Part shown: positions 50,019-51,514 of the stretch, one piece after another | Layout: the number at the start of each line of letters is the position of its first letter | How positions within the stretch are numbered: the first letter of the stretch is position 1 | Assembly: GCF_026168555.1 (NCBI RefSeq) | Contig: NZ_CP092471.1 | Coordinates: 1,374,501 to 1,438,500, forward strand | Length of the DNA stretch: 64,000 nucleotides | Direction: 5' to 3' | Origin: Qipengyuania spongiae | GTDB taxonomy: Bacteria; Pseudomonadota; Alphaproteobacteria; Sphingomonadales; Sphingomonadaceae | Made by a program: the position numbers and the translations under genes | The notes under the pieces: model-generated | Seen by the model: only the letters and a program-made list of their open reading frames with translations | The model's database searches: none | Told to the model about the DNA's origin: nothing

Positions 50019-50035
50019 TTGGGAAAAATTCCCAA
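50019..50035. promoter_or_regulatory. Perfect inverted repeat upstream of the sigma-54 promoter (candidate activator site)
   Basis: TTGGGAA-AAA-TTCCCAA, seven perfect bases each side of a 3-nt spacer. It is centred about 109 nt upstream of the expected start of the sigma-54 transcript, which is where enhancer-binding activators usually dock. The activator is unknown. It could equally regulate recF, whose start lies 59 nt to the left. Confidence 0.45.
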
Positions 50036-50109: not shown

Positions 50110-50125
50110 TGGCACACTGGTTGCA
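50110..50125 (+). promoter_or_regulatory. Sigma-54 (RpoN) promoter of the peptide-peptide-pspC operon
   Basis: TGGCAC-ACTGG-TTGCA matches the RpoN consensus TGGCAC-N5-TTGCW at every defined base, with exactly 10 nt between the -24 GG and the -12 GC. Transcription would begin near 50136, about 40 nt before the first peptide's ATG at 50177. Psp genes are sigma-54-dependent in proteobacteria, which supports the call. Confidence 0.78.
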
Positions 50126-50176
50126 AAGTTGTCGGCATCCCCCGGAAGGGCCGGGGTTCAGGAAGGAACATACGAA

Positions 50177-50290
50177 ATGACCTACGAAAATGCCAACAAC
50201 GCCTTCGCCGCCATCGCCGCTTTCGCCGTCTCGGTGATCGTCATGGCCGCCGCGATCGTCCCCGCCAGCCCGGCCGGCTTTTTCGCCTGA
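50177..50290 (+). CDS. 37-residue membrane peptide, first paralogue
   Basis: Small gene with a strong GGAAGGAAC ribosome binding site. The peptide opens MTYENANNAFAAIAAFAV, continues as one hydrophobic helix and ends IVPASPAGFFA. It aligns without gaps over its whole length with the second 37-residue peptide encoded 48 nt downstream (17 of 37 positions identical, including the shared PASPxG near the C-terminus). I do not recognise the family. Position behind a sigma-54 promoter and ahead of pspC suggests an envelope-stress role as a membrane micro-protein; that is inference. Confidence 0.75.
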   Translation: MTYENANNAFAAIAAFAVSVIVMAAAIVPASPAGFFA

Positions 50291-50338
50291 TCCGGCACTC
50301 GCCATCAATCCACACTCTCACGAAAAGGAATAGCTGAA

Positions 50339-50452
50339 ATGTCCGAATTCAACGCCAGCAAGGCTCTCGCCGCCGGCTTCTCGCTGGTTCTGTCCGCCAT
50401 CTTCTTCGCCACCGCGATCCTGCCCGCCTCGCCGAACGGAATGCTGGCATGA
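50339..50452 (+). CDS. 37-residue membrane peptide, second paralogue
   Basis: Second copy of the tandem pair: MSEFNASKALAAGFSLVLSA, then one hydrophobic helix and ILPASPNGMLA. AAAAGGA precedes the ATG. Its TGA overlaps the pspC start (ATGA), so translation of the peptide and PspC is coupled. It is more diverged in the N-terminal half than at the PASPxG end, which suggests that the C-terminal motif carries the function. Confidence 0.78.
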   Translation: MSEFNASKALAAGFSLVLSAIFFATAILPASPNGMLA

Positions 50453-50670
50453 GCGATCTGAAATTCCGCGAGGACGATCGGGCAGTCAGCCACCGCCCCA
50501 AGTTCCGGCTCGACAAGCGCGACGGAAAGCTGATGGGCGTCTGCGCCGGGATCGGCAATTACTTCGGGGTCGACACGACCCTGGTCAGGATCGCTTTCGT
50601 GCTCGGCACCCTGCTGGGCCTGGGCAGCTTCATCCTGATCTACCTGGCGATCGGCCTGATCGCCGACTGA
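50449..50670 (+). CDS. pspC: PspC-domain membrane protein
   Basis: A 73-residue phage-shock-protein-C domain protein. A basic N-terminal part (HRPKFRLDKRDGKLMGVCAGIGNYFG) precedes a hydrophobic helix (VRIAFVLGTLLGLGSFILIYLAIGL). In other proteobacteria PspC is an inner-membrane sensor of secretin or proton-leak stress that works with PspA and PspB; neither is encoded here. The start overlaps the stop of the second 37-residue peptide. It ends 38 nt before a convergent SDR gene. Confidence 0.92.
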   Translation: MSDLKFREDDRAVSHRPKFRLDKRDGKLMGVCAGIGNYFGVDTTLVRIAFVLGTLLGLGSFILIYLAIGLIAD

Positions 50671-50707
50671 GGGGGCGCGGCCGGACCGCCGCCCCCTCGG
50701 TCCCCTC

Positions 50708-51514
50708 TCACATGGCCGAGATCCCGCCGTCGAGCTTGAGCTCCGCACCGGTCATGAACTTGCTCTCGTCGCTGGCGAGGTAGAGCACGCCATTGGCGAT
50801 ATCGTCCGCTTCCCCGACCCGCTTCAGCGGGATCTGACGGGCAAGCTTTTCCATCACGACGCTCTTCTCGTAGCCCGTGTTCTTCACCATCCCGTCGAGG
50901 ATCGGCGTGTCGATGAAGGTCGGGTGGACCGAATTGCAGCGGATGTTCCAGCCCTGCTTGGCGCAATAGAGCGCGACCGATTTGGACAGCATCCACACCG
51001 CCGCCTTGCTCGCGTTGTAACCGGGCATGGTGTCGCTGGCGATCAGCCCGGCGATGGAGGAGATGTTGACGATCGAGCCGGGCTGGTTGTCGCGCATCAG
51101 CGGGATCGCCTTCTGGCACCCGAGGAACACGCTGTCGACATTGACTGCGAAGCCGTGGCGCCAGGTTGCCAGATCGCAGGTCTCGATATTACCCTTCACG
51201 CCGATCCCGGCATTGTTGACCAGCACCGACAGCCCGCCGAGATGTTCGCGCGCGGCGTCGATCGCGTCCTCCCACGCGGTCTCGTCGGTCACGTCGAGCT
51301 TCATGGAAAAGCCGGTGCCTGCGCCGCATTCCGCTTCGATCGCGCGAGCGGTTTCGGCGGCCCCGTCTTCATTGAGATCGGTCACCAGAACGCGCGCGCC
51401 CTCGCGCGCCAGCATCCGCGCCTGCGCCGCGCCAAGGCCCTGCGCGCCGCCCGTGACCAGCGCCAGCTTGCCCGCGACGCGCCCGCGTCCCTGGACGGTT
51501 TCCTTGTCTGCCAT
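50708..51514 (-). CDS. Short-chain dehydrogenase/reductase (3-alpha/7-alpha HSDH-like)
   Basis: NAD(P)-dependent classical SDR, 268 residues. Seen: TGGAQGLG near residue 21, NNAG, catalytic Ser in NISSIAGLI, Tyr-x-x-x-Lys in GYNASKAAV, and a C-terminal GAELKLDGGISAM. The region between resembles cyclopentanol, hydroxysteroid or 3-oxoacyl reductases; the substrate cannot be set. The ATG at 51514 has GGGAGAGTGAG upstream. It lies 2 nt after the Nudix gene's stop and so ends the lemA-TPM-TPM-Nudix-SDR run. Confidence 0.9.
   Translation of the reverse strand: MADKETVQGRGRVAGKLALVTGGAQGLGAAQARMLAREGARVLVTDLNEDGAAETARAIEAECGAGTGFSMKLDVTDETAWEDAIDAAREHLGGLSVLVNNAGIGVKGNIETCDLATWRHGFAVNVDSVFLGCQKAIPLMRDNQPGSIVNISSIAGLIASDTMPGYNASKAAVWMLSKSVALYCAKQGWNIRCNSVHPTFIDTPILDGMVKNTGYEKSVVMEKLARQIPLKRVGEADDIANGVLYLASDESKFMTGAELKLDGGISAM

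Follow-up and report, generated by a model that had tools for sequence, protein, structure and literature searches.

The question raised by this locus is whether a short operon that is read from a sigma-54 promoter and ends in a pspC-like gene takes the place of the Psp system in its genome or is added to it, and what its two very small genes contribute. The window, i.e. the whole stretch of 64,000 nucleotides analysed, corresponds to positions 1374501-1438500 of contig 1 in a genome of 2.93 Mb and two contigs; the closest named relatives are Qipengyuania and Erythrobacter. The operon is a plus-strand unit between two minus-strand genes named from their sequence, a recF-like gene (49960-48881) on one flank and a dehydrogenase-like gene ending at 50708 on the opposite one. 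The order of its parts is sigma-54 box, gene 1, gene 2 and pspC2.

Gene 1 (50177..50290, plus strand) and gene 2 (50339..50452, plus strand) are both comprised of 37 codons and a stop. Their products are paralogues which align without gaps, 17 of 37 residues being identical, as the original prediction had stated. The gene 1 product has one hydrophobic helix and ends in PASPAGFFA, and the gene 2 product ends in PASPNGMLA. The third gene, pspC2 (50449..50670, plus strand, 73 codons), encodes a minimal PspC-domain protein and starts within an ATGA common with the gene 2 stop. A search with the window PspC found matches in all 60 genomes of the same genus, and the upstream DNA of all 60 loci was read (30 + 30). 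Both peptides and the ATGA overlap are kept in 60/60 of these loci and the sigma-54 box in 59/60; the sixtieth contig ends approximately where the box would be. The prediction of a sigma-54 operon with real paralogous micro-proteins conserved beside an overlapping pspC is thus borne out within the genus.

The equal length of 37 codons is no rule, because within the genus gene 1 ranges from 32 to 39 codons and gene 2 from 37 to 39. Mean identity in the genus is 0.59 among gene 1 products and 0.63 among gene 2 products, as against 0.44 between the two sets, which fits a gene duplication predating the genus. The ratio dN/dS, summed over 300 same-genus pairs for each gene, is 0.44 for gene 1, 0.33 for gene 2 and 0.30 for pspC, and the third codon position is the most variable. 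By this comparison both peptides are under purifying selection. These values bear on the idea that translation of the small frames serves only to regulate that of pspC2 or to couple it, and that the peptides themselves are inert. The coupling of gene 2 to pspC2 by ATGA in all 60 loci would suit such leader frames, but the dN/dS of the two genes and the variable third position argue against them, as do peptide pairs found without pspC behind the same kind of promoter. Four such loci, each with box and palindrome (see below), were found, three in the same genus (L208, L209 and L304) and one in another (L210); the absence of pspC refers to the retrieved DNA at L208, L209 and L210 and to the listed frames at L304. 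Since pspC-less loci exist, the peptides are more than leaders of pspC, and inert leader frames are extremely improbable. For the same reason the peptides need not work with PspC. The four pspC-less pairs lie at sites other than recF. At L211 the box and peptides adjoin a recF-like gene with no PspC match, and the palindrome is weak there (13/17).

The reach of the operon was followed through the family, where 92 of 99 genomes have a PspC-domain match. Upstream DNA covers the best PspC2-like match of 58 of these 92 genomes (the window genome, G078 and 56 others). In other genera the box precedes 46 of the 56 best PspC2-like loci, and these 46 represent 43 genera. All 46 have short hydrophobic ORFs between box and pspC: one in 30 loci, two in 12 and three in 4. 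The conservation in relatives that was to be checked according to the original prediction therefore extends, for peptides and promoter, beyond the genus. Nine of the ten box-less loci fall with canonical PspC in the tree described below, and one (L197, linked to pspA) with PspC2. Among named PspC-domain loci, the counts of which overlap partly with the other-genus genome counts and are not to be added to them, 65 of 80 have the box, and none of these is without a small hydrophobic ORF. Represented among the 65 are Qipengyuania, Erythrobacter, Allopontixanthobacter, Pelagerythrobacter, Altererythrobacter, Pontixanthobacter, Croceicoccus, Aurantiacibacter, Novosphingobium and Sphingobium. The remaining 15 have no box in reach (a contig end in some, distant phyla in others). 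In a sample of the order, 44 of 196 genomes gave a match at E up to 0.01, of which 40 are within the same family; the four outside it lie inside frames of 1060-1067 codons and offer no credible peptide. In a sample of the class, 5 of 289 matched, two of them in the family; the other three are in frames of 110, 249 and 553 codons, and the sigma-54 box is absent from the retrieved loci outside the family, so that this sample too yields no credible peptide beyond the family. Two loci have peptides of a different appearance. The interval between box and pspC at L180 (G023) contains three hydrophobic ORFs of another sequence type, two of them of about 28-29 codons, and the peptide ahead of pspC at L194 (G013) contains LLVAC, which we take to resemble a lipoprotein box.

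The original prediction treated the third gene as a canonical pspC and regarded PspA and PspB as absent, their place being taken by the micro-proteins. PspC2 belongs to the PspC domain family, with 63.4 bits against PF04024 (cut-off 25), but scores 59.7 bits against the NCBIfam equivalog TIGR02978, below the cut-off of 104. With 73 residues it lacks the C-terminal portion of PspC. A tree was built from 106 PspC rows, 100 of them different, and in it one branch (95/86) splits 61 rows from 45; the tree has few columns, as the program warned, its root is for drawing only, and it includes 10 of the 60 PspC2 rows of the genus. On the 61-row side are all 59 rows labelled as box-linked, one whose box had been missed in labelling and one pspA-linked row; the rows on the other side are pspA-linked or unlabelled. 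The window PspC2 clusters with other micropeptide-linked copies, so that the canonical assignment is not supported, and PspC2 is an old, short paralogue of canonical PspC. Its structure model (mean pLDDT 72.6) has helices at 27-39 and 43-72; no match in the PDB was found by structure at E up to 0.001 or by sequence at E up to 1. Tandem PspC-domain genes, two each, adjoin pspA at L197 (G020) and L198 (G003).

The absence of PspA and PspB holds at the window locus only. Both are encoded elsewhere in the genome, at approximately G000:C1:2717390-2719655, together with pspF and a canonical pspC, all above the NCBIfam cut-offs; pspF is divergent from pspA, pspB and pspC. The micro-proteins consequently do not stand in for PspA and PspB, and the window operon is added to the main psp operon as a second one and does not replace it. 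At L010:1772-3140, 3' of the canonical pspC, a tandem series of several membrane proteins, each about 95-137 codons long, has a VLERI-type motif in common, and one of them has weak matches to PspC (E 0.0007) and PspB (E 0.0012).

The promoter connects the two operons. The sigma-54 box TGGCACACTGGTTGCA at 50110..50125 (plus strand) is real, but it is not consensus-perfect as first described: it agrees with 11 of the 12 specified positions of TGGCACG-N4-TTGCW and has A for G at the seventh base. The predicted transcription start at 50136 (plus strand), 12 bases past the GC of the -12 element, is placed from the box according to sigma-54 promoters in general. A palindrome, TTGGGAAAAATTCCCAA, at 50019..50035 (no strand assigned) starts 91 bp 5' of the box and is the putative PspF site. 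It was searched for elsewhere as the best match to a 17-base consensus, TTGGKRAWWWTYMCCAA, within 150 bp upstream of the box. This consensus, with a null drawn from the window, replaced an earlier 36-position matrix because the first null, made of retrieved loci, held true sites; with the matrix, 31 of 52 other-genus loci had p<0.01 and the pspA promoters p 0.013-0.022. In the window, 3972 stretches of 150 bp drawn at random all score below 14 with the consensus.

The position of the palindrome is conserved. The best match is at -90..-92 in 58/58 genus loci, in 47/50 other loci and at 9 of 11 pspA promoters of the genus, where the scores are weaker (12-16 of 17) and the best match lies elsewhere in the other two. 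At the pspA promoter of the window genome itself the palindrome is at -91, as at the window box, with 15 of 17 bases. It is also at -90..-92 in the four pspC-less loci tested, one of them weak. Of 20 pspA loci from other genera 19 have the box; their best match, with scores of 12-15, falls at -90..-92 for 15 and at -70/-71 for 4. Of the 65 named loci, 56 have it at -89..-92; the other 9, all within or near Sphingobium, have it at -110/-111 with scores of 13-14. Weak matches mean little singly; what repeats is the position. Four other sigma-54 sites in the window genome score 10-11, i.e. the palindrome is absent from them. The pattern CCCAA-N71..77-TGGCAY-N6-TGCW occurs at two places in the window genome, the window operon and pspA, and nowhere when reversed; 21 genomes together contain it 16 times, and as 6 of these matches lack the palindrome, its background is about 0.3 per genome.

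The window genome has one rpoN. From the site common to both promoters we infer that PspF drives the window operon as well as the pspA operon. The genome has nine PF00158 matches, six of them strong, so that another sigma-54 activator might drive the operon and the likeness to the pspA promoter might be mere resemblance, but the palindrome at the same distance at pspA, absent from four other sigma-54 sites of the genome, speaks against such an activator, which is highly improbable. The predicted link to envelope stress gains support from the palindrome common with the pspA promoter and from the presence of rpoN and pspF.

The leader of the message tends to be structured. A putative hairpin of six G-C pairs and a loop of five directly follows the predicted start, at 50140..50156 (plus strand), and the claim of a hairpin is based on folding each leader against shuffles. 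In 46 other-genus loci (43 genera) the mean z is -1.97, with 39 of 46 below -1, compared with -0.03 for upstream and +0.11 for coding controls. A larger set of 110 loci, with many close relatives among them, has a mean of -1.66, three control stretches giving -0.18, +0.44 and +0.21. The window leader alone (z -0.59) is not significant. The stem sequences vary between loci, and RNAalifold on 43 of 105 distinct leaders predicted no pair and gave no covariation support, we think due to differing loop lengths. Eleven pspA leaders do not have the hairpin in common (mean z -0.31). 5' hairpins can slow mRNA decay, and this is the simplest reading here. A second, strong G+C hairpin (50665..50702, no strand assigned; -33.4 kcal/mol, z -3.89, from the window sequence alone) spans the pspC2 stop between the converging genes and has no T tract.

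The pspA operon also opens with a small membrane peptide. In the window genome its first gene (L005:1553-1705, on G000:C1 behind a box at 2718000) encodes a membrane peptide of 50 codons, and the same is found in 10/10 genus loci. A hydrophobic frame of 50-74 codons occupies this place at 19 of 20 pspA loci from other genera. Altogether 30 of 31 pspA loci have an opening peptide; the exception showed no box, and the pspA motif was missed in one of 19. This peptide and those of the window have the layout in common but no clear sequence relation. It is possible, and proposed here tentatively, that membrane micropeptides are the core of the Psp response in this family. The PspF promoters, of pspA and of the orphan operon, would open with one to three single-helix peptides that diverge fast. 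These would be produced before any other effector, and PspA, PspC and PspC2 would act later or jointly with them.

Every peptide of the 60 genus loci has one strongly hydrophobic stretch with no charge C-terminal of it. A lysine or arginine is present within the first 12 residues in 50 of 60 gene 1 and in 60 of 60 gene 2 products; the window gene 1 product has none ahead of its hydrophobic stretch. Insertion with the N-terminus inside is expected from the positive-inside rule. The structure model of peptide 2 is a single helix at 6-27 (mean pLDDT 77.9). Neither window peptide has a family in Pfam or NCBIfam at E up to 1 (peptide 1 without its first Met), and homology to PspG or PspB (TIGR02976) was rejected on the same scan.

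The peptides might instead be secreted. A cut by signal peptidase I after A-x-A would free an 11-residue C-terminal peptide of the IVPASPxGxxA type with a periplasmic or signalling role, and A-x-A-[IVLTM]-x-P is present in 59 of 60 gene 1 and 51 of 60 gene 2 products; 12 of 30 relatives also match Pfam PhrC_PhrF (PF11131) weakly at E up to 1 (best E 0.0053). The window peptide 2 has no such match, however, the A-x-A is embedded in the hydrophobic stretch, flanked on either side by hydrophobic residues and not preceded by a polar region, and the C-terminal tail differs between genera. A secreted peptide is very unlikely.

TisB of E. coli is a stress-linked, single-helix membrane micropeptide of fewer than 50 residues. 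Like TisB and YohP of E. coli, the peptides might deliberately lower the membrane potential and silence metabolism in stress, a role consistent with their size, single helix and tandem copies and with the stress promoter and structured leader. According to passages of PMC12719787, YohP is a small membrane protein induced by stress; it dissipates the membrane potential and also triggers the Psp response. Loss of potential induces Psp, however, so that positive feedback would result, and no antisense RNA family was found over the leader in Rfam. One weak promoter-like site is present on the minus strand (50196-50167; 0.3 expected). Depolarisation is regarded as rather unlikely.

The peptides most likely protect the membrane in Psp stress together with PspC2, and the window operon is considered, with a little better than even confidence, an orphan second operon of the PspF regulon which makes membrane-protecting micropeptides with PspC2 as partner or anchor. 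Sequence comparison shows that the genes exist, are conserved and are under coding constraint, and it shows the promoter, the folding of the leader and the site that keeps its position here and at pspA; PspF binding, peptide topology, the role of the hairpin and the protective function we infer. Membrane stress would free PspF, which would bind the palindrome at 50019-50035 and activate sigma-54 RNA polymerase at 50110-50125. The 5' hairpin most likely protects the 5' end of the mRNA. From this mRNA would come a minimal PspC and between one and three micropeptides (two here), each crossing the inner membrane once. Inserted with their N-termini inside, they would contribute to a tight inner membrane, and PspC2 would serve them as partner or anchor; this partner step is weakened by the occurrence of the peptides without pspC.

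The genes were thought to be unannotated, which turned out otherwise: relatives are in the databases, and of the 120 listed among 564 relatives 11 are named 'recombination protein F' in at least one source, a label probably carried over from the neighbouring gene. The misnamed relatives have 37-47 residues, and two of the 11 rows carry the name only in UniRef. The first peptide of the pspA operon is named, where named at all, 'hypothetical protein'. Among the literature matches listed, which cover few subscription journals, there is no mention of the peptides or of a second sphingomonad pspC operon, and none occurs in passages of PMC11237479, PMC9239133 and PMC6472365; a passage search of the Psp surveys PMC11237479 and PMC9239133 gave neither 'Sphingom' nor 'Erythrobacter'. 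Psp is a well-studied envelope stress system, to which the second operon adds a micropeptide family and a PspC paralogue in many genera, and the pspA operon itself opens with a further peptide. As a clean genetic system the operon would allow the role of stress-induced membrane micropeptides to be studied, and it brings to light a misannotation that has spread.

The known systems are each similar in part. The canonical pspF-pspABC locus has, like the window operon, a sigma-54 box, a palindrome at -91, a PspC-domain protein and a membrane peptide first; the window operon is without pspA and pspB, and its PspC2 is short. For E. coli, passages of PMC9239133 describe only a single PspF target that lies outside the psp operon. 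The orphan PspF target pspG of E. coli and Yersinia, treated in the same passages, lies apart from the psp operon, is under sigma-54 and PspF and encodes a small membrane protein. The window operon, with PspF as its putative activator, has the same features, but it has shorter peptides, one to three of them, and a PspC paralogue. YohP, according to passages of PMC12719787, is like the window peptides in having fewer than 50 residues, one helix and a link to stress. The window peptides, likened to YohP and TisB by description and not by sequence, are under other regulation and have a pspC partner gene. Finally, a passage of PMC11237479 reports that Toastrack replaces PspC inside pspFABC in some Alphaproteobacteria; the window operon is from the same class of bacteria and is also a variation on pspFABC, but here PspC has been duplicated into a second operon.
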